From NCBI RefSeq assembly GCF_030116705.1, contig NZ_JAOTIK010000001.1:7406501-7470500 (forward strand): a stretch of 64,000 bases of DNA, given 5' to 3'. The DNA is from Streptomyces sp. ML-6. GTDB lineage: Bacteria; Actinomycetota; Actinomycetes; Streptomycetales; Streptomycetaceae. Below the pieces are notes generated by a model that saw nothing but the letters and a program-made list of their open reading frames with translations, did no database searches and had not been told where the DNA came from. A program made the translations under genes and the position numbers. Positions 10,995-63,979 of this stretch are shown one piece after another. Within the stretch, counting starts at the first letter, position 1; each line of letters begins with the position of its first letter.

Positions 10995-11453
10995 ATGACG
11001 ACGATCGAACCCCGTGACGTGCCCCCTCGCCTCGCCATCGGCGCGTTCGTCCTCAACTCCGGCCTGGGCAAACTGAAGGCCGACGCGGAGATGGCGCAGA
11101 GCCTGCACGGCATGGCCTGTGTCGCCTACCCGTTCCTGCAGCGGATCGAGTCCGGGCGGTTCACCCGGTTGCTCGCCTGGTCGGAGATCGCGCTCGGTGG
11201 CACCCTGCTCGCCCCCTGCGTGCCGACCCGGCTGGCGGGGCTGGCGCTGACGGGGTTCGCCGGGGGCCTGGTCGGGCTGTACCTGCGGGTCCCCGGAATG
11301 CATGAACCGGGCAGTCTGCGGCCCACCCAGAACGGCACTCCCCTGGCCAAGGACTTCTGGATGCTGGGCATCGGGCTCGGCTTCCTGGGCGCGAACGCCC
11401 GTTCCACGGCCCCGGGCGTTTCCCGGTGCTGTCGGCACCGGCGCCGGGGCTGA
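10995..11453 (+). CDS. DoxX-like membrane protein
   Basis: A 152-residue integral membrane protein with about four hydrophobic segments. The motif LAIGAFVLNSGLGKL near the N-terminus resembles the first helix of DoxX family proteins, and FTRLLAWSEIALGGTLL the second. The ATG at 10995 follows GGAGG and is preferred to upstream in-frame starts. DoxX proteins are linked to thiol/redox or quinone systems, but no specific role can be given here. A DUF6381 gene follows 23 bp downstream. Confidence 0.7.
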   Translation: MTTIEPRDVPPRLAIGAFVLNSGLGKLKADAEMAQSLHGMACVAYPFLQRIESGRFTRLLAWSEIALGGTLLAPCVPTRLAGLALTGFAGGLVGLYLRVPGMHEPGSLRPTQNGTPLAKDFWMLGIGLGFLGANARSTAPGVSRCCRHRRRG

Positions 11454-11476
11454 GGAGAACCACCCAAGGAGTGATC

Positions 11477-11668
11477 ATGAGCGAGTCGGACGAACTCCGC
11501 GGTCGTGTACGGCAACTGCGTGCCAAGGCGAAGGACCTGAAGGGCGAGGCCGAGCGGGCCACCGACCCGAAGGAACGCCGACGCCTGGAGGACAAGGCCC
11601 GCAGGCTCGAATCGGAGAGCGAGCAGGTGAGCGGCATGGCGAGCGGGGACATCTATCCCATGGAATGA
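11477..11668 (+). CDS. DUF6381 family small protein
   Basis: A 63-residue, charged, helix-forming protein. It begins MSESDELRGRVRQLRAK, continues with a Glu/Arg-rich helix, and ends SGMASGDIYPME; this SGDIYPME tail is the hallmark I know from the DUF6381 family of Streptomyces. It probably forms a coiled coil. The ATG follows AAGGAG. There is no known function. It lies between the DoxX-like and LLM oxidoreductase genes on the same strand. Confidence 0.75.
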   Translation: MSESDELRGRVRQLRAKAKDLKGEAERATDPKERRRLEDKARRLESESEQVSGMASGDIYPME

Positions 11669-11815
11669 ATGGAACGAGGCCGGGCGGAGCGGCTCCGGAG
11701 CCGAAGGCCCCGGCGAAGGGCAGGAAAGGCGGAAGCCGGGGAGAGCGGAAGACGGGAGAAGCCGGGGCCGGGGAATCCTGGCGGCGCGCGGGTGTTGCAC
11801 AAGGGTGTGAGTTCC

Positions 11816-12844
11816 GTGATCGCATCCACCCGGTTTTCCGTGCTCGACCGCTCCCGCACCCGTGAGGGGCACGACGGCCCCGAGGCACTGCGCGACACCG
11901 TGCACCTCGCCGAGGAGGCCGAGGCGCTCGGCTATTACCGGTTCTGGGTGTCCGAGCACCACAGCGTGCCGGGCGTCGCCGGTTCCGCGCCGACCGTGCT
12001 GGCCGCGGCCGTCGCGGCGGCGACCTCCGCCATCCGGGTCGGGACGGGCGGGGTGATGCTGCCCAACCACCGGCCCGTGGTGGTGGCCGAGCAGTTCGGC
12101 GTACTGGAATCCCTGTTCCCCGGCCGGATCGACATGGGCATCGGCCGCTCGGTCGGCTTCACCGACGGCATCCGCAGGGCGCTGGGCGGCGACCGGCCGG
12201 CCGCCGACGACTTCGCGGCGCAGCTGGCCGAACTGCTCGGCTGGCTGGACGGTACGCAACGGGCCCACCCGCAGGTCCACGCCCGCCCTGCCGAGGGGCT
12301 GCGCATCCCCCCGTTCGTGCTGGCCACCGGCGAGGGCGCCGGCATCGCGGCGGCGGCCGGGCTGCCGCTGGTGATCGGCGACCTGCGCGGCCGGGAGAAA
12401 CTGTTGCGCGCCGTCGAACGCTACCGACGGGACTTCCGCCCCTCCGCCCGGGCCGCGGAACCGTACGTGGTCGTCGCGGGCACCATCGCGGTCGCCGGAA
12501 GCACGCGGGAGGCCCGGCGGCTGCTGATGCCGGAAGCGTGGTCCATGGCGCACTCCCGTACCCACGGCGTCTTCCCGCCGCTTGCTCCGCCCGACCGGAT
12601 CGGGGCGAGGACCATGACGGAGAAGGAGCGCCGCTTCTACGAGGACGGGCTGAGCGGACACCTCCATGGCACGGAGGACGAGGTCGCCGCCGGTCTCGAA
12701 ACGGCCATCGAGGAGACCGGCGCCGACGAGGTGCTCGTCACGACCAGTACGTACGACCGGGCGGCCCTGGTGGACTCGCTGCGTCGCCTGGCCCGGATCG
12801 CGCGACTGACCCCGCACGGGGCGGTGCCGGCCGCACTGTCCTGA
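11816..12844 (+). CDS. LLM-class flavin-dependent oxidoreductase (MsnO8-like)
   Basis: A luciferase-like monooxygenase of about 342 residues using reduced flavin. Diagnostic blocks are SVLDRSRTREG at the N-terminus, RFWVSEHHSVPGVAGSAPTVL, and VGTGGVMLPNHRPVVVAEQFGVLE. The frame is open further upstream through a purine-rich leader; the GTG at 11816 is chosen since AAGGG lies 10 nt before it and the conserved fold starts four residues later. GTG 11807 is an alternative. Members are often annotated as alkanal-monooxygenase-like; the substrate is unknown. Confidence 0.85.
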   Translation: MIASTRFSVLDRSRTREGHDGPEALRDTVHLAEEAEALGYYRFWVSEHHSVPGVAGSAPTVLAAAVAAATSAIRVGTGGVMLPNHRPVVVAEQFGVLESLFPGRIDMGIGRSVGFTDGIRRALGGDRPAADDFAAQLAELLGWLDGTQRAHPQVHARPAEGLRIPPFVLATGEGAGIAAAAGLPLVIGDLRGREKLLRAVERYRRDFRPSARAAEPYVVVAGTIAVAGSTREARRLLMPEAWSMAHSRTHGVFPPLAPPDRIGARTMTEKERRFYEDGLSGHLHGTEDEVAAGLETAIEETGADEVLVTTSTYDRAALVDSLRRLARIARLTPHGAVPAALS

Positions 12845-50366: not shown

Positions 50367-50874
50367 TCCGTCCAGCCATGGCAGTCCAGGTCCGTCGCGC
50401 ATCGCGACGGCGCCTGTGCACGTGCAGTGGTCGGGTGTTTCACCCCGTGACTCCGCCGCAGCAAAGGCCAAAGCATGACCGAGAGTTGCGGCGCGAAGTC
50501 ACGCAAAGATAACAGGCCCTCGGGAGAGGGGGCGTACGGCTCCGCGTCTCCTCCGCCGGCGAGGGGTGCCGCACGGCCGCCGCGCGCAGGCGGATCCACG
50601 GGACGCCAAGGCGCTCGAACCGGCCAATTCGCTGGCCCCGCCCCGGCTCCGGCCGGGGGGCAACCGCCCGGCGCCGACGTCCGCTCCGGGGGCTGTAACA
50701 CTCCGGTAATTCTTGTTGATGGAGCGTCAAGTCAGCTTTTCGCCAAGAGTATTGATGAGTACGGACGGTGCCGTGGTGACATCGGGAACCTCGCGCATAA
50801 GGTCTGGAACGCGCAGTGAGCCCGGCCGGCCGGTCCCTCGGAATGGTCAACGACGCCCCGTACAGGGAGAAGCA
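50367..50874. other. 508-bp divergent intergenic region before the NRPS cluster
   Basis: This region separates the PBP gene from the NRPS cluster. Bases 50690-50820 are clearly poorer in GC than the surroundings (for example AATTCTTGTTGATGG and GCTTTTCGCCAAGAGTATTGATGAG), as expected of a promoter. One frame through it ends VWNAQ at 50819, but its low-GC codons do not look like host coding DNA. No iron box, TTA-containing regulator or clear dyad was found. Confidence 0.5.
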
Positions 50875-51909
50875 GTGTCACGTGTCGAACCCGTCCTGGC
50901 GCGGGCCCTTTTCCGGACCCCCTTACTCCGCCTGGACGTCGCCCACCGGGGCCGTGTGCGACGTCTGGGACTGAAACTCGAATCGCGCGGCCCCACCGGA
51001 TCGGTGAAGGACCGCAGCGCCGTCGGACTGCTGCGGGCGCTGCACGACGAACGACCGCTCACCCCGGGCACGGTGGTGGTGGAATCCACCTCCGGCAACC
51101 TCGGCCTGGCCCTGGCCCGGATGCTGCCCGCCCTCGGCTGCGACTTCCTCGCGGTGGTCGACCCGAAGACCCCGCACGCCACCCGCCGCATGCTCACCGA
51201 CCGGGGCGCCCGGGTCCTCGTCGTCGACGAACCCGACGGCCGGGGCGGCTACCTGCTCAGCCGGCTGCGCCGGGTGCGCGAACTGTGCGCGGAACACCCC
51301 GGATACCGCTGGCCCGACCAGTACGAGAACTGGGCCGCCCCCGAGATCCACCGCCGCGTCACGGGCCCCGAGCTCACCGGACAGGCCGGAGCGGACCTCC
51401 ACGCCGTCTACGTACCGGTCTCCACCGGCGGCACCCTCGCCGGCATCGGCGCGCACCTGCGCGAGCACCGGCCCGACGTCGCCGCGGTCGCCGTGGACGT
51501 ACGCGGCTCACTGGCCGTCGCGGGCAGCGCGGGACGCCGCCTCATACCGGGCATCGGGGCCAGCCGGCCGTCCACCTTCCTGACGGCGCCGCACAGCTAC
51601 GACCGCGCCGTGCACGTCGACGACATCGAGGCCATCGCCGTCTGCCGGATCCTCGTCGAGGACGTGGGACTCGCCCTCGGCGGCTCCAGCGGCTGCGCCG
51701 TGCGCGCCATGCTGGCCGACCGGGAGGACGACGGCCCCGACGACCGGCTCTCGGTGTGCCTGGCCGCCGACGGCGGCGGCAAGTACCGCGACACCCTCTA
51801 CTCCGACGACTGGGCGACAGAACAGGGCGTGGCCAAGGAGATCACCGCCGCTGTGGAACACCTGCGCAGTGAAGGTCTCTTCTTCGACCGAAAGCACCAG
51901 GAGCACTGA
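50875..51909 (+). CDS. sbnA: SbnA-like PLP enzyme for 2,3-diaminopropionate synthesis
   Basis: A 344-residue member of the cysteine synthase family. The PLP lysine is in GPTGSVKDRSAVG, the asparagine loop is ESTSGNLGLAL, and the phosphate-binding Gly loop is VSTGGTLAGIG. SbnA couples O-phosphoserine and glutamate to give N-(2-amino-2-carboxyethyl)-L-glutamate, the precursor of L-2,3-diaminopropionate. Cysteine synthase itself is the alternative, but the SbnB-like gene two places downstream supports the Dap role. GTG 50875 follows GGGAGA. It is the first gene of the NRPS operon. Confidence 0.85.
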   Translation: MSRVEPVLARALFRTPLLRLDVAHRGRVRRLGLKLESRGPTGSVKDRSAVGLLRALHDERPLTPGTVVVESTSGNLGLALARMLPALGCDFLAVVDPKTPHATRRMLTDRGARVLVVDEPDGRGGYLLSRLRRVRELCAEHPGYRWPDQYENWAAPEIHRRVTGPELTGQAGADLHAVYVPVSTGGTLAGIGAHLREHRPDVAAVAVDVRGSLAVAGSAGRRLIPGIGASRPSTFLTAPHSYDRAVHVDDIEAIAVCRILVEDVGLALGGSSGCAVRAMLADREDDGPDDRLSVCLAADGGGKYRDTLYSDDWATEQGVAKEITAAVEHLRSEGLFFDRKHQEH

Positions 51910-51911
51910 AC

Positions 51912-53135
51912 ATGGGCACCACCACCCTCGACCCACGGCGGACGGACCGCGGCCACCGGCAGTACCTGCCGCTGGTGCAGGGCGCCACGCTGATCGAGTG
52001 GACCGGAACGGGACTGTTCCTCGCCGTCTCGACCATCTACTTCGTCAAGGTCGCCCACCTCAGCACCTCGGCCGTCGGCACCGGCCTCACCATCGGCGGC
52101 GCCGTGGCCGTCGCCACCGCCGTGCCCGTCGCCCGGCTGGCCGGCCGTTTCGGACCGAAGCCGGTGCTGATCGGCGTGATGCTGCTGCGCGCCCTGGCCA
52201 CCGCCGGCTACCTGTGGGTCGACGGCTGGTGGAGCTTCCTCCTCGTGGTCGCCCTCGTCGCCGTCACCGAACAGTCCTCGCCCCCGCTGGTCCAGGCGTA
52301 CGTCGGCGCTCGCACCCCGCAGAGCCTGCGCGCGAAGGTGATGGCCGTCCAGCGCACCGTCGTCAACCTGGGCATCAGCCTGGGCGGACTCATCGCCGGG
52401 GTCGCCCTGGGCTCCGGCGCTCCGGGAGCCTTCCGGCCGCTGCTGATCGGCGGCGCCCTCGCCTACGTACTGGTGGCCGCGGTGTACGCCACCGCACGGC
52501 GCGAGGAGGTCGGGGAGGTCACCCGCAGCACCGGCGTGGCGGCGCTGCTGAAGGACCGCCGCCTGCTGGGCTTCACCGCGTACAACGCGCTGGTGTCGCT
52601 CTGGATGCCGGTGCTCAACGTGGCCTTCCCGCTGTGGCTCGTCACCAGGACGGACGTGCCGGAGCGCTACGTCGGCATCCTCTACGCCGTCAACACCGTG
52701 CTGTGCATCGCCCTCCAGTACCCGCTCAACCGCTGCTACGGCACCCCGCGCCGGGCCTGGCTCTCCTATGCGACCGCGGCACTGCTGCTCGCCGGCGGCG
52801 CCCTGGCCTTCGCCGCCGCGCCCGGCCTCGCGACCCGGGAGGCGCTGCTGGTGCTCGCCGCCGCCGTCGTCCTGCTGACGTTCGCCGAACTGCTCCAGGT
52901 CGGCGCCTCGTGGACCCTCTCCTTCGACCTGGCGCCGGAAGGGGCGCGCAGCGCGTACCTGGTGCTGTTCAACACCAGCCGCACCGTGGCCAACCGGGTC
53001 GCGGGACCGGTGCTGATGACCGGGGTCGTCCTCGCCCTGGGCACGGCCGGCTGGATCGCGCTCGCCCTGGTGCTGCTGCTCGGCGCGCTCGTCCCCTTCG
53101 TGATGATCCGGGAGCCGCACGGCACCGGCCACTGA
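51912..53135 (+). CDS. MFS transporter in the NRPS operon
   Basis: A 407-residue major facilitator with about 12 segments. The loop after segment 2 reads GRFGPKPVLIGVMLLRALAT, and EQSSPPLVQAYVGARTPQSL follows in the next loop. It begins 2 nt after the sbnA stop, so it is coupled. In this setting it probably exports the peptide product or its precursor, or confers self-resistance. Confidence 0.85.
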   Translation: MGTTTLDPRRTDRGHRQYLPLVQGATLIEWTGTGLFLAVSTIYFVKVAHLSTSAVGTGLTIGGAVAVATAVPVARLAGRFGPKPVLIGVMLLRALATAGYLWVDGWWSFLLVVALVAVTEQSSPPLVQAYVGARTPQSLRAKVMAVQRTVVNLGISLGGLIAGVALGSGAPGAFRPLLIGGALAYVLVAAVYATARREEVGEVTRSTGVAALLKDRRLLGFTAYNALVSLWMPVLNVAFPLWLVTRTDVPERYVGILYAVNTVLCIALQYPLNRCYGTPRRAWLSYATAALLLAGGALAFAAAPGLATREALLVLAAAVVLLTFAELLQVGASWTLSFDLAPEGARSAYLVLFNTSRTVANRVAGPVLMTGVVLALGTAGWIALALVLLLGALVPFVMIREPHGTGH

Positions 53136-53186: not shown

Positions 53187-54260
53187 ATGGACTTCGAGCA
53201 CTACCCCGACAGCCACTTCCGCTACCTGACCCGCGCGGACGTCATCGAGGCCGCCCGCGACGTGGACATCGTGGAGGCGGTGGCCCAGGCGCTCCGGCTG
53301 CACGCCGCCGGACAGTCGGTCCTCCCCGAGGAGGCGTACCTCGGCTGGACCACCCCGCAGGGCGACTCGGCCAGACTGCTGGCCATGCCCGGCGCCCTGA
53401 CCAGGGACGGGCGGCCCCCGGTCATCGGGATGAAGACGATCAACGCCTCGATCGGCAACCCGGAACGCGGAATGCCCCGCTCCCAGGGCTTCACCCTGCT
53501 CCTCGACCCCGAGACCGCCCGCCCCCTCGCCCTGATGGAGGCCGCCTACATCAGCGCGATGCGCACCGCCGCGGTCACCGCGCTCGCCGTGCGCCACCTC
53601 GCGGTGGAAAACCCGCGGCGACTGGCGCTCCTCGGCTGCGGCGCGCTCGCCCAGGCCCACGCGGCGCTGCTGCTGCGCACCGTGCCCACCCTGGGCCGCA
53701 TCACGCTGTACGACGTGGCGCCCGACCGCGCGAAGTCCGCCGCCCACCGCATCGCCTCGCTGCCCGGCGCGGCGGACGTCGAGACGGTGGTCGCCGACGG
53801 CCCGCGGGAGGCGGTACGGGACGCCGAGGTCGTCGTACCCGTCACCACCGTGACCCGGGGCTACATCGAACCGGACTGGCTGCGCCCCGGCACGCTCGTC
53901 TGCCACGTCTCGCTGGACGACCTCACCGAGGCGGCGGTGCTCGCCGCCGGCACGGTGCTCGTCGACGACTGGAGCCTGGTCCGGGACGACCCGCGCCGGC
54001 TGCTCGGCCGGATGCACCGGGCGGGCACCCTGCTCGGCCCCGACGGCACCCCCAGGGAAGGAGTCACCGCCCGCCCCGGGGCCCGCCGCGTCGACGGAAC
54101 GCTCGGCGACGTGCTCACCGGAGGGCACCCGGGCCGCCGCGACCCGGACGAGATCGTGATCAGCAACCCGTTCGGGATGTCGATCCTGGACGTCGCCGTG
54201 GCCGACCGCATCCACGCCCACGCCGAGGCCGCCGGTCTCGGCGCCCGGCTCACGCTCTGA
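53187..54260 (+). CDS. sbnB: SbnB-like dehydrogenase for 2,3-diaminopropionate synthesis
   Basis: A 357-residue protein of the ornithine cyclodeaminase/mu-crystallin family. The Rossmann motif is LALLGCGALAQAHAALLL (about 149-166), with GMKTINASIGNPERGMPRSQ before it and DEIVISNPFGMSILDVAVAD at the end. SbnB oxidatively cleaves the SbnA product with NAD to L-2,3-diaminopropionate, 2-oxoglutarate and ammonia. Together with SbnA it defines a Dap supply for the NRPS. ATG 53187 follows AAGGAG. Confidence 0.88.
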   Translation: MDFEHYPDSHFRYLTRADVIEAARDVDIVEAVAQALRLHAAGQSVLPEEAYLGWTTPQGDSARLLAMPGALTRDGRPPVIGMKTINASIGNPERGMPRSQGFTLLLDPETARPLALMEAAYISAMRTAAVTALAVRHLAVENPRRLALLGCGALAQAHAALLLRTVPTLGRITLYDVAPDRAKSAAHRIASLPGAADVETVVADGPREAVRDAEVVVPVTTVTRGYIEPDWLRPGTLVCHVSLDDLTEAAVLAAGTVLVDDWSLVRDDPRRLLGRMHRAGTLLGPDGTPREGVTARPGARRVDGTLGDVLTGGHPGRRDPDEIVISNPFGMSILDVAVADRIHAHAEAAGLGARLTL

Positions 54261-54269
54261 GGGGGAACC

Positions 54270-55085
54270 GTGACGATCGATCCGAACATCCAGGAGATCA
54301 ACCGCACCATGTGGTCGTACGGCGAGTACCGGCACGTCGCCGACCTGCTGCGGCCCGGCGCCGTCGAACTGGTCGAGCGGCTCGCCCCCGCCCCGGGCAC
54401 CGCCCACCTCGACGTCGCCACCGGAAACGGCAACGTCGCGCTGCTGTCCGCCCTGTGCGGCTCCGTGGTCACCGGGCTGGACCTCACCGACGAGTTCTTC
54501 CCCGACGCCCGCGAACGGTTCGCGCAGGCCGGCGTCCAGGTGGACCTGCACCGCGGCGACGCCCAGGAACTCCCCTTCGCCGACGCCTCGTTCGACCTGG
54601 TGACCTCCACCTACGGCATCCAGTTCGCCCCCGACCACACCGCGGCGGCCGGCGAGATGGCCCGGGTGCTGCGGCCCGGCGGCCGGATCGGCATGTGCAA
54701 CTGGACGGCCCGCAGCTGGACCGCGCACTTCCAGGCGATCCTCTCCGCCTACTTCGCCTCGCCCAACGGACACCAGGGACAGCCCATGCTGTGGGGGTCG
54801 CCGGACTACCTCGGAGAACTCCTCGGCCCCGGCTTCACCGTCACGGCCGAACGCCGCGAACTCTTCTACCCGTTCGGCACGGCCGACGACCTGGTCACCT
54901 TCTTCGAGAACTGCTTCGGCCCCTGCATCGCGGCACGCAACACCATCTCGCCGCCCTCGCGATGGAAGGAACTGCGGGCGGAGATGACCGAGATGACCGA
55001 GGACTTCCACACCACCGACGAACGGGGCACCGGCGTGCCCGTCGAGTACCTGCTCGTCGTCGCGGAGAAGAAGGAGGACCGGTGA
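54270..55085 (+). CDS. SAM-dependent methyltransferase in the NRPS operon
   Basis: A 271-residue Rossmann-fold methyltransferase. Motif I is LDVATGNGNVALLSA (about 48-62), the acidic loop is TGLDLTDEFF, and post-motif I contains GDAQELPFADASFDLVTSTY. It probably methylates N or O of the peptide or a building block. GTG 54270 is nine bases after the sbnB stop, and its own stop overlaps the first NRPS start (GTGA), so it is co-translated with the assembly line. Confidence 0.85.
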   Translation: MTIDPNIQEINRTMWSYGEYRHVADLLRPGAVELVERLAPAPGTAHLDVATGNGNVALLSALCGSVVTGLDLTDEFFPDARERFAQAGVQVDLHRGDAQELPFADASFDLVTSTYGIQFAPDHTAAAGEMARVLRPGGRIGMCNWTARSWTAHFQAILSAYFASPNGHQGQPMLWGSPDYLGELLGPGFTVTAERRELFYPFGTADDLVTFFENCFGPCIAARNTISPPSRWKELRAEMTEMTEDFHTTDERGTGVPVEYLLVVAEKKEDR

Positions 55086-58000
55086 CCGGAGTGCCCGAGC
55101 GGTACCCGGTGCTCCCCCTGGCGGAAGGCGCCCGCGAACGCGCCCGCGCCACGGCACTGACCCGCAGCGAACCGTACGAACTGGGCGAAGGAGTCCACTT
55201 CCACGTCGAACGGCACGCCGCCGAGCACCCGGCCAGGACCGCGATCGACGACGGACGGACGGCCGTCGGATACGCCGAGCTGGCGGACCGCGCGCGCCGC
55301 ACCGCCACGCGGCTGGCGGCCGAGGGCGTCTCGCCGGGGCGGATCGTCGCCGTCGGCGGACGGCGCGGCATCGACGTCGTCACGGCCTTCCTCGCGCTGG
55401 AACTGCTCGGCGCCGTCTATCTGCCGGTCGACGCGGGCTGGCCCGCCGCCCGCGTCGAGTCCCTGCTCACCGACAGCGGCGCGGTCCTCGCCCTGGTCAC
55501 CGGCGGGCCGGCGGACACCGGGGAACTCGTCAAGGGCGCCCGCGCGGCCGGAGTACCCGTCACGGCACCGGAACCGGCGGACCTCCCGTACACCCGCACG
55601 ACCCCCATGGCCCCCGACGAGATCCGCTACGTCCTCTACACCTCGGGCTCGACCGGCCGCCCCAAGGCCGCGGTCATCGAGCACCGGGGCATGCTCAACC
55701 ACCTGTGGGCCAAGGTCGACGACCTCGGGCTGACCGCGGACGACCGACTGGCCCAGACCGCACCGCTGGGCTTCGACATCTCCGTCTGGCAGATGCTCGC
55801 CCCGCTGCTCGTCGGCGGCCGGGTGCAGATCTTCGACGACGAACGGGCCCAGGACGGCGCCCTGTTGCTGGCGGAACTGCGCGACCGCGGCACCACGGTG
55901 CTGGAGACCGTGCCCACCCTGATCCGCTTCCTCCTCGACGCGCGGGAGAGCACGGGCCCCGGACCCGGCGCACTGCGCTGGATGATCGCCACCGGCGAGG
56001 AACTGCCGCCCGCCCTGGCCCGGCGCTGGCACGACACCCTGCCGGACATCCGGCTGCTCAACGCGTACGGCCCCACCGAGTGCTCGGACGACGTCACCCA
56101 CGCCGTGCTCGGCCCGCCCGCCGACGGAGTGCGCCACCTGCCGATCGGATCACCCGTAGGGAACGCCGAACTCCACGTGCTGCGCGAGGAGGACGGGCGG
56201 TGGCACGCCTGCGAGCACGGGGAGGCGGGCGAACTGTTCGTCGGGGGGATCGTCGTGGGCCGCGGCTACCTGGGCGACCCGGCCCGCACCGCCCGGGCCT
56301 TCTTCACCGACCCCTTCGGCGACGGCGTCGGACGCCTCTACCGCACCGGCGACGCCGTACGCGTGCTGCCGGACGGCCAGCTGGAGTACCTGGGCCGGGT
56401 CGACCGGCAGGTCAAGCTCGGCGGCGTACGCATGGAACTCGCCGAGATCGAGGCGGTGCTCGGCACCCACCCCGCCGTCGCCGCCTGCGCCGTCACCGTC
56501 CACACCCCCGACGACGCCGGTGCCCTGGTCGCCCGGGAGAGCGCCCACACCCCGGCGGCCGCACGACCGCCGAGGCTGGTCGCCTACGTCACCCCCGCCG
56601 ACGAGGAGGTGCCGCAGGAGACGCTCCGCGCCCACCTCGCCGAGCGGCTCCCCGCACCGATGGTGCCCCGCACCTTCGTCGTCCTGCCCCGCATCCCGCT
56701 CACCCGCAACGGCAAGACGGACTACCGGGCCCTGCCCGCGCCGCCGCGCCGCGACCGCCCCGGGACCCGGCCGTACACCCCGCCGCGCGACGCGGCGGAG
56801 AGCGCCGTCGCGGACCTCGTCGCCGAACTCCTGGGCACCGGACGGGTCGGCCGGGACGACAGGTTCCTGGAACTGGGCGGCGACTCGCTGCTGGCCATGC
56901 GCCTGGTCGCGGCGCTGCGCCGGACGGGGTCGGCCGCGAGCCTGCGCGACGTGCTGCGCGACGGCAGCCCCGCCGCGCTCGCCGCCCTCGGCCACGAGGA
57001 GCGGCGACCGGCCCCCGCCCCCGCCGAACCGCCCCGGGACCGGCCGCGGACCCGCCCGCTCACCCCCCAGCAGGCCGGGGTCTACTTCCACTGGCGGCTC
57101 GACCCGCTCAGCCCCTACTACAGCTACCAGGGATCCCTGGAACTCGACGGCCCCCTCGACACGGCACGGCTGGCCCGGGCCTGGCACCTGCTGCTCGGCG
57201 AGAACCCGCTGCTGCTCGCCCGGTTCCACGAGACCGACGGGACGGACGGGCAGGAAGTGGTGCACCACTACCCGCACTGGGAGGTGCCGCTGCCCGACCG
57301 CGCCCGGGATGTCACCGCGGACGAGTTCCGCGCCGAGGCCGCCCGGGAGGCGGCCAGACCCTTCGACCTCCTCACCGGACCGGCCCTGCGGACCGAACTG
57401 TTCCGCCTGCCCGACGGACAGCACCGGCTCCTGGTCACCATGCACGAACTGCTCCTCGACGGCTGGGGCGCCACCGTGCTCTTCCAACGCCTCGCCGAGC
57501 TGTACGAACGGCCTCCCGCCGGCCCCGACCCCGAACGCGCCACCCGGTACGACCGTTACCTGGACCACCTGACGGAGCTGCTGGCCACCGAGGAGGTGAC
57601 CCGGGCGGGGGAGTACTGGCTCGACCGGCTCTCCGGGGACCTCCCGGTGCTGGGGATCGCGCAGAAGCAGCGGCCCGTCGCACCCACCTACCGGGGCGAG
57701 ATCACCGAGGCGGTCCTCGACGAGCACCTGTCCCGGCGGCTGCACGCCACCGCGCTGGCCGCGTCCGCCACCGCGTTCGTACCGCTGCTGGCCGCCTACG
57801 CGCTCGCCCTGAGCTACTACGGCGACACCGACGAGGTGATCGTCGGCGCCCCGATGGCGGGCCGGGAACGGCCGGAGACCGCCGAGGTGCCGGCCTTCGT
57901 GCTCGCCATGCTGCCGCTGCGGCTGCGCATCGACCCGGCCGCGACCCTGGCGGGGTTCACCGCACAGGTGAGGGAGACGGTGTACGAGGCGTACGCCGCG

Positions 58001-58378
58001 GCCGACCACCCCTTCGGCTGGACCCTGCGACGGCTCCCCGCCGCGACGCGCAGCTCGTCGGCGACCCCGGTCTTCCAGACCATGCTCAACATGCTGCCGT
58101 ACCCGGCACGCGCCACCACCGCGGCGGGCGTCACCTTCCGCTTCGTCGAACTCGACACCGGCCACACCAAGTACGACTGCGCCCTCTACGTCCAGCCGCA
58201 CGGCCCGGACCGGCTGCTGTTGCAGTACGCCTACCAGCAGGAACTGCTCGACGCCCCGGCCGCCCGCAACGTACTGCAATCCACCCTGACTGCGCTGCGG
58301 GCCCTCACCGACCCGGAGCACGCGGGGCACACCACCGTCCGTTCCCTCGATCTGCTGCCCGGAGACGATCACCGATGA
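55082..58378 (+). CDS. Nonribosomal peptide synthetase, A-PCP-C
   Basis: A 1098-residue NRPS. The adenylation domain (about 30-545) has YTSGSTGRPKA and NAYGPTE. The pocket read by alignment to PheA is D-I-W-E-I-T-A-D-D-K, starting at D232. Its anchoring Asp is intact, and two acidic residues at positions 330/331 suit an amino side chain such as 2,3-diaminopropionate. The carrier domain holds S602 in LGGDSLLA. The C-terminal condensation domain (about 655-1095) has MHELLLDG (787-794): Met for the first His of HHxxxDG, with the catalytic His and Asp kept. No thioesterase is present. It is coupled to both neighbours by overlaps. Confidence 0.9.
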   Translation: MTGVPERYPVLPLAEGARERARATALTRSEPYELGEGVHFHVERHAAEHPARTAIDDGRTAVGYAELADRARRTATRLAAEGVSPGRIVAVGGRRGIDVVTAFLALELLGAVYLPVDAGWPAARVESLLTDSGAVLALVTGGPADTGELVKGARAAGVPVTAPEPADLPYTRTTPMAPDEIRYVLYTSGSTGRPKAAVIEHRGMLNHLWAKVDDLGLTADDRLAQTAPLGFDISVWQMLAPLLVGGRVQIFDDERAQDGALLLAELRDRGTTVLETVPTLIRFLLDARESTGPGPGALRWMIATGEELPPALARRWHDTLPDIRLLNAYGPTECSDDVTHAVLGPPADGVRHLPIGSPVGNAELHVLREEDGRWHACEHGEAGELFVGGIVVGRGYLGDPARTARAFFTDPFGDGVGRLYRTGDAVRVLPDGQLEYLGRVDRQVKLGGVRMELAEIEAVLGTHPAVAACAVTVHTPDDAGALVARESAHTPAAARPPRLVAYVTPADEEVPQETLRAHLAERLPAPMVPRTFVVLPRIPLTRNGKTDYRALPAPPRRDRPGTRPYTPPRDAAESAVADLVAELLGTGRVGRDDRFLELGGDSLLAMRLVAALRRTGSAASLRDVLRDGSPAALAALGHEERRPAPAPAEPPRDRPRTRPLTPQQAGVYFHWRLDPLSPYYSYQGSLELDGPLDTARLARAWHLLLGENPLLLARFHETDGTDGQEVVHHYPHWEVPLPDRARDVTADEFRAEAAREAARPFDLLTGPALRTELFRLPDGQHRLLVTMHELLLDGWGATVLFQRLAELYERPPAGPDPERATRYDRYLDHLTELLATEEVTRAGEYWLDRLSGDLPVLGIAQKQRPVAPTYRGEITEAVLDEHLSRRLHATALAASATAFVPLLAAYALALSYYGDTDEVIVGAPMAGRERPETAEVPAFVLAMLPLRLRIDPAATLAGFTAQVRETVYEAYAAADHPFGWTLRRLPAATRSSSATPVFQTMLNMLPYPARATTAAGVTFRFVELDTGHTKYDCALYVQPHGPDRLLLQYAYQQELLDAPAARNVLQSTLTALRALTDPEHAGHTTVRSLDLLPGDDHR

Positions 58379-60129
58379 CCCCGCCGACCCTGCTGGAACT
58401 CTTCGCCGAACAGGTCGAGGCCCACCCCGGCGCCGTGGCCCTGCGCCACGCCGGAACCGAGGTCACCTACCGCGAACTCGACGAGTGGAGCGGCCGACTG
58501 GCCGCCCGGCTCGCCGCCAGGGGCACCGGTCCCGGCTCGCTGGTGGCCCTCGCCGCCCAGCGCGGTCCCGCCGCCGTCGCCGGAGTCCTCGCCGTGCTGA
58601 GGACCGGCGCCGCCTACCTCGGGCTGGACCCCGCCACCCCCGTGCGACGACAGCGCCGGATGGTGGAGGAGACCGGACCGCACTGCGTGCTGGCCGAACC
58701 CGGACTCGACCGGTTCCCCACCCTGGACGCCCCCCGCGTCACCCTCGCCCCCCTCACCGAGGGGCCGCTGCACCGGGCCCCCGAGCAGGAGCCCGACGAC
58801 GACGCGCTGTTCCACATCGTCTACACCTCGGGGACCACCGGAAACCCCAAGGGCGTGCGCATCAGCCACCGTTCGGTCCGCGGCCGGCTGGAGTGGATGT
58901 GGCGGGACCACCCCTTCCCCGCGGACGCGGTGCTCGCCGTCCAGAAATCCCTCGCCCTGGTCGCCTCGCCCTGGGAACTGCTGGGCGGACTGCTGAAGGG
59001 CGTCCCGTCCGTGGTGCTCGGCACCGACGAACTCCTCGACCCGGTGCTGTTCGCCGCCGCCGTCGAACAGGAACGGATCACCCACCTCTTCCTGACCCCG
59101 CAACTGATCGCCGGCCTCCTGGAGGAGAGCGCGAAACGCCCCGGCGGACACCAACCCGCCCTGGTCACCAGCGGCGCCGACACCCTGCCCGTGGCCACCG
59201 TCCTGCGCTTCCGCGAGGTCTGGCCCGACACCACCCTGCTCAACCTCTACGGCATGACGGAGACCGCCTCCAACGTCGCCGCCTACGACACCGCCGTACT
59301 GCCGGCCGACGCCGAACGAGTCCCCGTCGGCAGCCCCGTCGCGGGCGCCTCGCTCTCGGTTCGCGACCGGCTCGGCCGACGGCTGCCGCCCGGCGTGACC
59401 GGCGAGGTGTGGGTCTCCGGACCGCCCCTGGCCCTCGGCTACGTCGGCGGCGACGGCGACGGCCGGTTCGTCACGGACGACACCGGGGCGACGCACTACC
59501 GGACCGGCGACCGGGGCCGCCTGCTCCCGGACTCCGCACTGGAGATCACCGGCCGCACCGACAACCAGATCAAGATCCGCGGCTACCGCGTCGAACTGGA
59601 GGAGATCGAGGCCACCCTGCGCAAGGCGCCCGGCGTCACCGACGCGGGCGCATACGCGCAGAGCGAGGACGACGGGACGAGCATCATCGCCTGCCTCACC
59701 TCCGACGAGGAGACCGACCCCGCCGCCCTGCGCGCCTACCTGCGCGACCGGCTGCCCGACTACATGCTGCCCGCCCGCGTCCAGCAGCTCCCGCACCTCC
59801 CGCTGAACACCAACGGCAAACTGGACCGCGCCGCCCTGCGCACGCTCGTGGCGGGCATCGGTCAGGAACGGACCGGCGAATTCACCCCGGCCGACGACAC
59901 CGAGGCCGCCGTCGCCGCCCTCTGGCAGGAACTGCTCGGCGCACCGCCCGCCTCGGCGGACCAGAACTTCTTCGACGCCGGGGGCCACTCCCTGCTCGCC
60001 GTGCGGCTCGCCAACCGGCTCGCGGACACGGCGGGCCGCCGGGTGCCGCTGCGCCGCATCCTCGGCGCGCCCACCGTCACCGCCATCGCCGCCCTGTGCC
60101 GCGAGATCCGACAGGAGGAGCAGATATGA
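58375..60129 (+). CDS. Nonribosomal peptide synthetase, A-PCP, with atypical substrate pocket
   Basis: A 584-residue stand-alone A-PCP module. Core motifs are VYTSGTTGNPKGVRISHRS (from residue 149), LYGMTETASN, and the C-terminal NTNGKLDRAAL with the adenylation Lys. The carrier serine is S539 in AGGHSLLA. At the position equivalent to Asp235 of PheA stands Val196 (LVASPWEL), so the usual clamp for an alpha-amino group is absent; the read code is V-A-W-F-V-S-L-S-N-K. It may activate a beta-amino, hydroxy or plain carboxylic acid. It has no condensation domain and should receive from the C domain of the preceding protein. Confidence 0.88.
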   Translation: MTPPTLLELFAEQVEAHPGAVALRHAGTEVTYRELDEWSGRLAARLAARGTGPGSLVALAAQRGPAAVAGVLAVLRTGAAYLGLDPATPVRRQRRMVEETGPHCVLAEPGLDRFPTLDAPRVTLAPLTEGPLHRAPEQEPDDDALFHIVYTSGTTGNPKGVRISHRSVRGRLEWMWRDHPFPADAVLAVQKSLALVASPWELLGGLLKGVPSVVLGTDELLDPVLFAAAVEQERITHLFLTPQLIAGLLEESAKRPGGHQPALVTSGADTLPVATVLRFREVWPDTTLLNLYGMTETASNVAAYDTAVLPADAERVPVGSPVAGASLSVRDRLGRRLPPGVTGEVWVSGPPLALGYVGGDGDGRFVTDDTGATHYRTGDRGRLLPDSALEITGRTDNQIKIRGYRVELEEIEATLRKAPGVTDAGAYAQSEDDGTSIIACLTSDEETDPAALRAYLRDRLPDYMLPARVQQLPHLPLNTNGKLDRAALRTLVAGIGQERTGEFTPADDTEAAVAALWQELLGAPPASADQNFFDAGGHSLLAVRLANRLADTAGRRVPLRRILGAPTVTAIAALCREIRQEEQI

Positions 60130-62399
60130 ACGGCCCCTGGCTGAGCATGCCGGACGAGCGGTCGAGGTCCACCCCGGCCACCACCCTCGCCGTCTGCTTC
60201 GCACCCACCGGCGCCCACGGTTCCTCGTTCGCGCCATGGCACGGCCGCCTCCCCGAGGACACCGCCCTCGTGCTCGTCACACCACCGGGCCGCGGCAGCC
60301 GCGTCGACGAGGAACCCGTCACCGACATGACGGTCTACGCGGACGCCGTGGCGGCCGGGATCCGCGAACTGCGCGACGGGCGGCGGCTGGTACTGATCGG
60401 CGTCAGCCTCGGGGCCCTGCTGGCGTACGAGACGTGCCGCCGGCTCCTCGACGCCGGGGTGCCGGTCGCACGGCTGTGCGCGGTGGCCGGACAGTGTCCC
60501 GGCGACTTCGACGGCCACGGCAGCGACGTCACCGTCGAGGACGCCCGCGCCTTCGTCGTCGGGACCGGACTGACCGACCCGGAACTGCTGGCGGACCCCG
60601 AGTTCGAGGAGGTGCTGCTGCCGCCCGTGATCGCCGACCTCCGGCTGGCCGCCGGGTACGACGGCCGCCGGGGCCCCCTGCCGCAGGTCGACCTGCGCGC
60701 GGTGTGGGCCACCGAGGACCCGCACGTGCCCGAGGTCACCGTGCGCCGCTGGGCCGAGTGGACCCGCGGCACCTGCACCATGGCGTCCGTCGAGGGCGGC
60801 CACTACACCCACCGGGAGAACCCGGCGGCGGTCGTGTCCGCCTGCCTGGAGGGCCTGCCGGGAAGCGGACCGTCCCGGCGCTCCGTGCTCGGCGCCGGGG
60901 CGACCGCCGTGGCGGGCACCGTGCTGGGAATCGGCGCGGTGGCCTCGACGCCGTCCGGGGCACGGGCCGCCACCGCCACCCCGACGGGCGGCGCATTCTT
61001 CGACGGCGACCCCACCGACCCCGTGGACCTGGCCGTGGCCATGATCCGGCAGAACACCAGCAACCCCGGTGACGGCGCGGTCACCCTGCCGCTCGCCCGG
61101 ATGCTCCAGGACGTCTTCCGGGCCGCCGGCGTCGACACCGAGATCGTGCCCACCCCGAAGGAGGGCAACGTCCACTTCTTCGCCCGCGTGCCCGGCAGCG
61201 GCCCGGCCCGCAAGGACCCGCTGGTCCTGCTCGGCCACTCCGACGTGGTGCCCGCCATCGGCGACACCTGGCGGACCGACCCCTTCGCCGGGGAGATCGA
61301 GGACGGCAAGCTGTACGGCCGCGGCTCGCTCGACATGAAGGGCGTCAACGCCGCCTTCGTCGCCGCCCTGCTGCGCCACGTCCGCGAGGGCACGGCCTTC
61401 GACCGCGACATCGTCCTCTGGTCCGACTGCGACGAGGAACAGGGCCCCTACGGCGTGCGCTGGTTCCTCACCGAACACCCCGGCCGGGTGACGGCGGGCA
61501 CGGTCCTCACCGAGGGCGGCTGGGTGCTCAACCAGCGCGACGGCACGACGCCCATGATCGCCTCGCTCACCTGCAACGACAAACGCTCCCTGCTGCTGCG
61601 CCTGGAAACCTCCTCCTACGCCACCCACACCTCCAAGCCGTTCACCGGCCAGGCGGTGGTCCGACTGGGCGAGGTGCTCGACCTGCTGGGGGAGTGGCGC
61701 GCCCACATCCGCCCCAACGCGCTGTCCCGGCGGTACTTCGCGGAACTGGCCGAGGCCACCACCGACCGGCCCTTCGCCGAGGCGCTGAGGGAGATGCTCG
61801 ACGCCCGCACGGAACAGCAGCGGGACCGGGCGGGCGAGGCGGTGGTGCGGCTCAGCGAGACCCCGGAACTGCACAACGCCATGCTGCGGACCACGCTCGC
61901 CTTCACGGCGGCGCAGTCCGGTTACTACCCGAGCATCGTGCCGGGCACCGCGACCGCGGACTTCCGGGCCGCCTTCCTGCCGGGGGCCGAGGACCCCGGA
62001 CGCACCGTCGCCGAACTGCGTTCGCTGATCGGCAACCGGGCGAAGCTGACCGTCGTCGGGAATCCGGGCGAGAGCGAGCAGCAGGCCCTGGACCGGCTGC
62101 GCGGCTATCTGGCCACGCCCGACTCCGACCACGACACGGACGTCTTCCGCGCCTGGCAGGACGCCGTGGGCCGGACCCATCCCGGAGTACGGGCCACCCC
62201 CTGCCAGTTCGAGGCCGTCACCAGCGCCGTGCCGTTCCGGGAACAGGGGGTGCCGGTGTACGGCATGTACCCGTTCACGGTGAACCGGGACATGCTCAAG
62301 CGCATGCACGGCACCGACGAGCACATCGGGGTCGAGGCGCTGCGGCAGGGCACCGAGACCGTCTACCAGCTCCTGGCCGGACTGCGTACGGGGAGCTGA
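60126..62399 (+). CDS. Type II thioesterase fused to a Tat signal and an M20 metallopeptidase
   Basis: A 757-residue fusion. Residues 1-240 are a type II thioesterase with S94 (GVSLGA), D198 (ATEDPHVP) and H226 (EGGHYTH). Residues 249-281 are a complete twin-arginine signal: SRRSVLGAGA, a hydrophobic Ala/Gly core, and ARA before ATATPT. Residues 298-757 are an M20 peptidase with GHSDVVP, GRGSLDMKG, CDEEQGPYG and GTDEHIGVEA, all ligands present. An in-frame GTG at 60834 (codon 237) would start the peptidase alone with a 14-residue n-region ahead of the RR pair. ATG 60126 overlaps the NRPS stop. Either two genes fused in frame or one frame yields two products. Confidence 0.88.
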   Translation: MNGPWLSMPDERSRSTPATTLAVCFAPTGAHGSSFAPWHGRLPEDTALVLVTPPGRGSRVDEEPVTDMTVYADAVAAGIRELRDGRRLVLIGVSLGALLAYETCRRLLDAGVPVARLCAVAGQCPGDFDGHGSDVTVEDARAFVVGTGLTDPELLADPEFEEVLLPPVIADLRLAAGYDGRRGPLPQVDLRAVWATEDPHVPEVTVRRWAEWTRGTCTMASVEGGHYTHRENPAAVVSACLEGLPGSGPSRRSVLGAGATAVAGTVLGIGAVASTPSGARAATATPTGGAFFDGDPTDPVDLAVAMIRQNTSNPGDGAVTLPLARMLQDVFRAAGVDTEIVPTPKEGNVHFFARVPGSGPARKDPLVLLGHSDVVPAIGDTWRTDPFAGEIEDGKLYGRGSLDMKGVNAAFVAALLRHVREGTAFDRDIVLWSDCDEEQGPYGVRWFLTEHPGRVTAGTVLTEGGWVLNQRDGTTPMIASLTCNDKRSLLLRLETSSYATHTSKPFTGQAVVRLGEVLDLLGEWRAHIRPNALSRRYFAELAEATTDRPFAEALREMLDARTEQQRDRAGEAVVRLSETPELHNAMLRTTLAFTAAQSGYYPSIVPGTATADFRAAFLPGAEDPGRTVAELRSLIGNRAKLTVVGNPGESEQQALDRLRGYLATPDSDHDTDVFRAWQDAVGRTHPGVRATPCQFEAVTSAVPFREQGVPVYGMYPFTVNRDMLKRMHGTDEHIGVEALRQGTETVYQLLAGLRTGS

Positions 62400-62461: not shown

Positions 62462-63979
62462 TCACCCCACGCTGACCCAGTCGAGGGTCCGCTGCACCGC
62501 CCGCTTCCAGTTCGCGTAGCCCTCCGCCCGCCGCTCCTCGCTCCACTGCGGTTCCCAGCGCTTCGACTCCTGCCAGTGCTCGCGCAACTCGCCCTCGTCC
62601 TCCCAGAACCCGGTGGCCAGCCCGGCCGCGTAGGCGGCACCGAGCGCGGTCGTCTCGGCGACGACCGGACGGCTGACGGGGACGCCGAGGACATCGGCCT
62701 GGATCTGCATGCACAGGTCGTTGGCCGTGACCCCGCCGTCGACCTTGAGCACGTCGAGGTGGACCCCGGAGTCCTGCTCCATCGCCTCCACCACGTCCCG
62801 GCTCTGGTAGCAGATGGCCTCCAGGGTGGCCCGCGCCAGATGGCCGTTGGTGTTGTACCGGGCCAGGCCGACGATGGCGCCCCGCGCGTCGGAGCGCCAG
62901 TACGGGGCGAAGAGGCCGGAGAAGGCCGGTACGAAGTACATCCCGCCGTTGTCCTCGACCGTCCGGGCGAGGTGCTCGCTCTCGCTCGCGTTCGATATGA
63001 TCTTCATCTGGTCCCGCAGCCACTGCACCGCGGAGCCGGTGACCGCGATGGAGCCCTCCAGGGCGTAGACCGCCGGGCTCTTCCCGAACCGGTAGGCGAC
63101 CGTGGTGAGGAGCCCGTGCCGCGACCGGATGAGCTTGGTGCCGGTGTTGAGCACGAGGAAGTTGCCGGTGCCGTAGGTGTTCTTCGCCTCGCCCGGCTCG
63201 AAGCACACCTGCCCCACGGTGGCCGCCTGCTGGTCGCCGAGCACCCCGGTGATCGGGATCGCGGCCCGCAGGGGGCGGGAGGTGCGGGTGCAGCCGTACG
63301 CCTCCCGGTCGGAGGAGGAGTTGATGGCCGGGAGCATCGCGCGGGGGATGCCGAAGACGTCCAGCAGCTCGTCGTCCCAGTCGAGCGTCTCCAGGTTCAT
63401 CAGCATCGTCCGGCTGGCGTTGGTCACGTCGGTGGCGTGGATGCCGCCGTCGGGACCGCCGGTGAGGTTCCACAGCACCCAGCAGTCGGTGTTCCCGAAC
63501 ACCGCGTGCCCCTGCTCCGCCGCCTCGCGGACGCCCTCGACGTTGTCGAGGATCCACTTGATCTTCCCGCCGGAGAAGTACGTGGCCGGGGGGAGCCCCG
63601 CCTTGCGCCGGATGACCTCGCCGTGGCCCTCGTTCTCCAGGGCCTGGGCGATCGCGTCGGTACGGGTGTCCTGCCACACGATGGCGTTGTAGTACGGGCG
63701 GCCGGTGCGCGGGTCCCACACGACGGTCGTCTCGCGCTGGTTGGTGATCCCGATGGCGTCGAGGTCCGTGGCGCTCAGTCCCCCGGTGCGCAGGGCGTTC
63801 TGCATCACCGAGTTGGTGCGTTCCCAGATCTCCACCGGGTCGTGCTCCACCCAGCCGGGGCGGGGCAGGATCTGTTCGTGCTCCAACTGGTGCTTGGCCA
63901 CTTCGTTTCCGTCGTGATCGAAGATCATGAAGCGGCTGCTGGTGGTGCCTTGGTCCACCGCGCCGATGAAGTCCGCCAT
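62462..63979 (-). CDS. glpK: Glycerol kinase
   Basis: A 505-residue full-length FGGY kinase that phosphorylates glycerol to sn-glycerol 3-phosphate. It begins [20 protein letters not shown], the phosphate-1 motif, and has the glycerol-binding [10 protein letters not shown], the FGGY signature region [24 protein letters not shown], and the adenosine motif [14 protein letters not shown]. The ATG at 63979 follows GAGAGGAAG. A glycerol facilitator gene would be expected just beyond the window edge. This is ordinary central metabolism. Confidence 0.95.

Follow-up and report, generated by a model that had tools for sequence, protein, structure and literature searches.

We focused our attention on a gene that ends a nonribosomal peptide synthetase (NRPS) operon of Streptomyces sp. 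ML-6, within a stretch of 64,000 nucleotides of contig NZ_JAOTIK010000001.1 (hereafter the window). Located at 60126-62399 on the plus strand, it is a single open frame of 757 codons that joins a thioesterase (TE), a signal of the twin-arginine translocation (Tat) type and an M20 peptidase, and its ATG overlaps the stop codon of the upstream adenylation-thiolation (A-T) NRPS gene (ATGA). An initial annotation had reported this arrangement, with intact catalytic residues in both enzymes, and had offered two explanations: either an internal GTG at 60834 starts a separate exported peptidase, or the fusion acts as a unit. The features of the gene are the following:

60126..62399, plus strand: whole fusion gene, TE–Tat-type signal–M20 peptidase, 757 amino acids, found at full length in 17 distinct loci
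60183..60860, plus strand: thioesterase domain, residues 20-245 (PF00975; Ser94, Asp198, His226)
60405-60407, plus strand: Ser94 codon, TE nucleophile in a GVSLG context
60834..60836, plus strand: GTG codon (Val237), the internal start of the initial annotation, not conserved
60873..60893, plus strand: twin-arginine motif S-R-R-S-V-L-G, residues 250-256, with Ser250, Arg251, Arg252 and Leu255 in 17/17 fusions
60894..60968, plus strand: hydrophobic region and c-region with an A-R-A cleavage-like site, residues 257-281, predicted cut after 60968
61017..62387, plus strand: M20 metallopeptidase domain, residues 298-754 (PF01546, fold matches, stand-alone relatives)

Pfam places Thioesterase PF00975 at residues 23-240 (E 1.8e-25) and Peptidase_M20 PF01546 at residues 368-750 (E 6.2e-25), both above cut-off, and each profile matched in 14 of the 14 fusions scanned. 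We take Ser94 (GVSLG), Asp198 and His226 to be the TE triad; Asp198 and His226 are present in all 17 fusions and Ser94 in 14, with serine in the window. Likewise, the metal and catalytic positions of the M20 domain are presumably His371, Asp373, Asp403, Glu437, Glu438, Glu463 and His728, and all seven are kept in 17/17 fusions. The intact active sites reported for the window are thereby upheld. As to the M20 family, the best NCBIfam match (PRK09133) lies far under its cut-off (218.1 versus 349 bits). The AlphaFold model, of middling quality (mean pLDDT 73.2, pTM 0.50), consists of two domains and a disordered joint, with pLDDT below 50 at residues 247-290. Solved structural neighbours of the first domain are BorB, RedJ, YbtT and RifR, and fold matches of the second include DapE, the Sso-CP2 carboxypeptidase and carnosinase-type M20 enzymes. 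Between the two domains lie P-S-R-R-S-V-L-G-A-G, an uncharged stretch and A-R-A-A, so delimiting a Tat-type signal at residues 250-281 (SRRSVLG...ARA, followed by AT), with A-R-A at 279-281.

Distribution of the fusion and its M20 relatives

The full fusion was found at 17 distinct loci, window included, with 58-96% identity; this count was reached after removing duplicates (L021=L027, L022=L031, L045=L032; L-numbers denote the loci compared) and counting the own genome once. Among 61 genomes, the full fusion was found in the own genome, and the best other match reached 133 bits and covered one part only. A draw of 392 genomes from the genus gave 3 matches at E 1e-60, own included. Moreover, a pattern scan of genome contigs returned 116 matches, 13 of which encode relatives, all of them full-length fusions (two on the same contigs as both new loci of the genus draw); the patterns were taken from the fusions' own M20 words, and 13/13 is therefore not evidence against stand-alone relatives. 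The family draw gave 7 matches in 394 genomes at 1e-80 (5 fusions, 2 without TE), the class draw 7 in 394 at 1e-80 (2 fusions, 5 without TE) and the phylum draw the own genome as sole match (1/396, at E 1e-90), three results that differ in sample and E limit and are not frequencies. Both NRPS genes lie upstream in 15/17 fusions (window, L023-L032, L035, L040, L044, L046), which, together with the Pfam matches and the motif, confirms the reported arrangement of one frame closing an NRPS operon. On these sequences, the fusion and its conservation are near certain.

Seven stand-alone M20 relatives were found, approximately 42-48% identical to the M20 part, of which L041 is interrupted (its second piece is 36.5% identical); L042 and L043 belong to the window's genus. 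An N-terminal twin-arginine signal, judged by eye, is present in six of the seven (L036, L037, L038, L041, L042 and L043). These six resemble the fusions in M20 identity (about 45-48%) and, by eye, in the signal, but differ in that the signal is N-terminal and a TE is lacking. Beside these six genes, no window NRPS gene was matched in the stretches compared (E up to 1e-8), and weak neighbour matches comprised a major facilitator superfamily (MFS) gene in L043 and a methyltransferase in L042. L036 and L043, from two different families, both lie near what we take to be urease-type genes. The seventh relative, L039 (9094-10455; 42% identity), has no Tat signal, and its neighbours are presumably ketosynthase- and aromatase-like open reading frames (ORFs).

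Because six of the seven stand-alone relatives carry an N-terminal twin-arginine signal by eye, the fusion seems to hold an entire Tat precursor. The simplest history would seem to be that a TE gene was fused to a complete Tat precursor gene, and that both parts then descended together; the main splits of the TE and M20 trees (14 fusions) agree when compared informally.

The Tat-type signal and the topology of the chain

The SRR triplet is invariant in 17/17 fusions. On a tree of 15 fusions, Arg251 has undergone at least 8 and Arg252 at least 6 codon steps, with 0 amino-acid steps, and only 1 of 50 linker and tail columns flanking the motif block is unchanged; the mean number of steps per column is 2.9 in the linker and 3.3 in the tail, whereas the TE and the M20 domain average 1.9 and 1.2, respectively. 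The linker ahead of SRR also differs by up to 15 alignment columns among fusions. As the twin arginines stayed unreplaced through repeated codon changes in an otherwise variable linker, they presumably do something, and the pattern strongly indicates selection on the Tat motif. Ala279 is found in 15/17 fusions, Ala281 in 16/17 and a basic c-region residue in 15/17. The first 20 residues past the arginines are uncharged in 13 of 14 fusions, with one charge in L033. The best 19-residue hydropathy after the arginines is 1.38-1.91 in 17/17 fusions; before them it reaches 1.15-1.67, in the region of the TE nucleophile (residues 70-99), and the stretch after the arginines is more hydrophobic than any before them in 14/17. 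The fusion signal thus combines a motif of the consensus type (SRRxFLK, as given in passages of PMC7317946) with a hydrophobic stretch and an AxA site.

A local control over 317 called genes from 20 sources found 26 internal twin arginines followed by a hydrophobic stretch: 15 were these fusions, 9 the operon MFS gene and 2 other hydrophobic stretches. This control did not include L042-L046, and its filter is stricter than real Tat signals, as it missed L036 and L038 (arginine soon after the pair). A chance twin-arginine motif was rejected on the basis of conservation and this control.

The conflict between a cytosolic TE and an export signal, raised in the initial annotation, is real. We lean towards the following explanation. 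The gene would yield one polypeptide, whose N-terminal TE would fold in the cytosol and serve the carrier domains of the adjoining upstream NRPS, in thioester release or clearing. The internal twin-arginine signal would insert N-in into the Tat translocon, and the folded, metal-loaded M20 domain would be carried across the membrane. The chain would probably be cut between ARA and AT, so that the TE (1-281) would stay tail-anchored on the inner side of the membrane and a 476-residue M20 peptidase would be set free outside. There, the peptidase may trim whatever product the operon's MFS pump exports, or act on another substrate. According to passages of PMC7317946, the twin arginines are bound on the cytosolic side of TatC, with the signal entering in hairpin form, so that a folded TE could stay inside while the M20 domain exits. 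Tat export, cleavage, topology and peptidase substrate are what we infer from these sequences. An internal Tat signal and signal peptidase could in this way give two compartments from one product, a mechanism that the initial annotation had not named. More tentatively, and with our doubts slightly outweighing our confidence, the protein might be a translocation-split polyprotein, placing two enzymes of the same pathway on opposite membrane sides at a fixed 1:1 ratio with no transmembrane helix ahead of the signal. Prodrug activation by the M20 peptidase is possible, but a guess; 2/17 fusions (L033, L034) lie without an NRPS operon match in the stretches compared.

In favour of a single chain with an exported M20 domain stand the conserved arginines, AxA-like site and basic c-region residue, and the lack of a conserved internal start. 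Internal Tat signals are also used by actinobacterial Rieske and related proteins (passages of PMC5449189). Several points weigh against it. Tat signals ordinarily have free N-termini, and the internal ones described in those passages follow membrane-inserted helices, not a soluble domain, whereas here the arginine pair begins at residue 251, behind the TE domain, and no convincing transmembrane helix was found ahead of it in the TE part of the 17 fusions on a crude hydropathy scale. The position after SRRx is Val (15 fusions) or Leu (2), not the consensus Phe, and the strict filter passed only 2 of the 5 stand-alone relatives that the local control covered (L037, L041). Moreover, selection on the arginines would be equally expected if a separate Tat-M20 protein began at differing internal sites, and internal GTG codons do exist, the best paired with the anti-Shine-Dalgarno sequence being L031 GTG206 (-9.5 kcal/mol) and L028 GTG236 (-7.4 kcal/mol); several other GTG206 codons pair fairly well (-6.6 kcal/mol).

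The last two points bear on the strongest alternative, namely that an internal translation start yields a cytosolic full-length or TE-only protein and a separately started Tat-M20 protein for export. In the window, an n-region that began with the GTG at 60834 would be 14 residues long, and this codon has a pairing energy of -5.0 kcal/mol; L028 GTG236 and L034 GTG246 (-5.7 kcal/mol) are similarly placed, and members of the fusion family often have GTG at residues 193, 201 and 206. However, the codon for residue 237 is GTG in only 1 of 17 fusions, the window, and otherwise ATC (9), GTC (3), CTG (2) or CTC (2), and the GTG at 60834 was accordingly rejected as a conserved start. Four of the 17 (L024, L025, L032, L033) have no ATG, GTG or TTG at residues 207-250, and in L033 no start found within residues 190-250 pairs better than -3.3 kcal/mol. 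With a start at 193-206, at least 45 residues of TE core would precede the signal, and GTG valine codons are in any case abundant in high-GC genes. Pairing at the true ATG is -10.3 to -11.0 kcal/mol in 13/14 fusions (in the 14th sequence, L035, a position other than its start codon was scored); at internal sites it ranges from +1.5 to -9.5 kcal/mol, with none good throughout the 14, and across the fusions compared no internal start that matches a ribosome-binding site is conserved. One chain is therefore likely, rather than two translation starts, and we hold the internal start to be unlikely; of the two options first offered, it is the fusion acting as a unit that we favour.

Less probable still is a cytosolic bifunctional enzyme, in which the signal would be a relic and both domains would act inside, for instance in release followed by peptide trimming. 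An assembly-line TE and a tailoring peptidase would make a sensible unit, the stand-alone L039 lacks a signal, and 250 residues precede the signal here, compared with the ordinary free N-terminus (passages of PMC5449189). A relic should nevertheless decay, yet the arginines are kept in 17/17 fusions despite synonymous changes, as are the hydrophobic stretch and, in most, the AxA site. It is very improbable that the whole chain, TE included, is exported or tethered outside as a folded unit: although Tat moves folded proteins (passages of PMC7317946) and a Gly nucleophile in 3/17 fusions suggests that cytosolic TE chemistry is not always needed, with the arginines placed before the hydrophobic stretch the N-terminal side is expected to remain inside, the triad is present in 14/17 TEs, and 15/17 fusions lie beside NRPS genes. 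Finally, the idea that a sequencing error or frameshift merged two neighbouring genes, to which stand-alone M20 genes with N-terminal twin arginines lend some colour, is refuted by the open frame in 17 distinct loci, so that the full fusion, sought elsewhere as first proposed, is no missed stop/start artefact.

The operon and the copies with an altered nucleophile

The fusion closes a run of seven plus-strand genes, in the order SbnA-like pyridoxal phosphate (PLP) enzyme, MFS pump, SbnB-like dehydrogenase, methyltransferase, adenylation-thiolation-condensation (A-T-C) protein, A-T protein and TE-Tat-M20. The six upstream genes are:

50713..51909, plus strand: SbnA-like PLP enzyme, start uncertain (50713 or 50956), TIGR03945 best NCBIfam match
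51912..53135, plus strand: MFS transporter, candidate exporter (PF07690)
53187..54260, plus strand: SbnB-like dehydrogenase, possibly for 2,3-diaminopropionate supply, TIGR03944 best NCBIfam match
54270..55085, plus strand: methyltransferase (PF08241)
55091..58378, plus strand: NRPS A-T-C protein, 1095 amino acids (Pfam)
58375..60129, plus strand: NRPS A-T protein, 584 amino acids (Pfam), whose A domain apparently has no Asp to hold the alpha-amino group

Pfam detected neither a thioesterase nor a reductase domain in the two NRPS proteins (E 0.001), which makes the fused TE the obvious release or editing enzyme. The two Sbn-like genes recall the SbnA/SbnB diaminopropionate cassette, whose families are their top-scoring NCBIfam matches, but both scores lie under cut-off (276 bits against 349.95 for TIGR03945; 243.7 against 326.9 for TIGR03944), and the window's cassette feeds an A-T-C / A-T NRPS. 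The code of the first A domain, as we read it, is D-I-W-E-I-T-A-D-D, as would fit a basic residue, for instance diaminopropionate; in the second, Val presumably replaces the amino-binding Asp (LALVASPWEL). The A-domain motif FDISVWQM is present in 11/11 relatives and LALVASPWE, of the second A domain, in 9/11, the other 2 being unmatched by the search expression. As a literature search on such code strings found no paper, no product is named. The diaminopropionate guess is weakened by L044 (2990-3136), which keeps the NRPS genes and the fusion with no SbnA/SbnB match in the stretch compared; a gene set that we take to be bacteriocin-export-like follows that operon. In L031 (S. minutiscleroticus), a transposon-type ORF, presumably TnpB-like, lies between the two NRPS genes (5887-7068). 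In the window, what appears to be a glycerol-kinase-like gene lies 3' of the fusion on the opposite strand (62462-63979).

In three fusions (L033, L034, L035), Ser94 is replaced by Gly (GVGLG), with GGHD for GGHY, and the TE is probably inactive; the Tat motif and M20 residues are intact. These copies lie on one side of a supported branch of the unrooted tree, and by our own reading of it a single Ser94-to-Gly change would suffice. The pairwise dN/dS between L033 and L034 is 0.43 for the TE versus 0.26 for the M20 domain, compared with TE values of 0.15-0.36 in five other close pairs, which indicates a relaxed but persisting constraint on the Gly94 TE. That the TE frame is still open in both copies counts in favour of the single exported chain. 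Even without catalysis, folding, anchoring or carrier docking may require such a TE. L033 and L034 gave no match to any other operon gene in the stretches compared (E 1e-20). In both (L033 11468-19664, L034 171-8299), the fusion adjoins, in differing relative orientation, a common set of seven genes: 8-amino-7-oxononanoate-synthase-like (PRK07505), flavin adenine dinucleotide (FAD)-type, short-chain dehydrogenase/reductase, nucleotide-sugar epimerase type, aminotransferase, RarD and nucleotide-sugar dehydrogenase. The set was named from L034, to which L033 was matched by eye, and the FAD-type gene, which gave no NCBIfam match, is so called on our own assumption. In L035 (S. uncialis), NRPS genes are present beside the Gly94 fusion, and an NRPS-like ORF, presumably of the condensation type, overlaps the end of the fusion gene (11282-12787) and is a candidate for product release.

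Comparison with known systems

Literature searches on a TE–Tat–M20 fusion or its mechanism, and on a Tat/pyoverdine precedent, found no paper; no wider absence is claimed. In some Streptomyces, an inside enzyme and an exportable enzyme share one chain with a well-conserved export signal in mid-chain, and the NRPS operon is marked as possibly finished outside the cell, its product not having been found here. If the single-chain explanation is true, one gene would sort natural-product pathway enzymes to both membrane sides, a new coupling of assembly-line release inside to maturation outside.

Type II thioesterases of NRPS and polyketide synthase clusters (BorB, RedJ, RifR, YbtT) are separate cytosolic proteins. 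The fused TE shares their PF00975 profile and triad, but continues at its C-terminus into an export-type signal followed by a peptidase, it is fused in all 17 loci compared, and its nucleophile is Gly in 3/17.

The Rieske protein Sco2149 and other dual Sec-Tat proteins, as described in passages of PMC5449189, share with the fusion an internal twin-arginine motif, N-in topology and a Tat-exported globular domain, the last two being predictions here. In the S. coelicolor Rieske protein, two helices inserted by Sec come before the internal signal is recognised, and a signal peptidase site was introduced by the authors to release AmiA cargo (PMC5449189). The motif of dual Sec-Tat proteins thus follows Sec-inserted transmembrane helices, whereas in the fusion it follows a soluble enzyme domain; the new point is that nothing resembling a membrane helix, on a crude scale, appears ahead of the signal. 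With a folded enzyme of some 245 residues preceding the signal, this conserved natural family makes the rule of a free N-terminus or preceding Sec helices directly testable, and the fusion would, if our explanation is true, be a soluble-domain counterpart of the dual Sec-Tat proteins.

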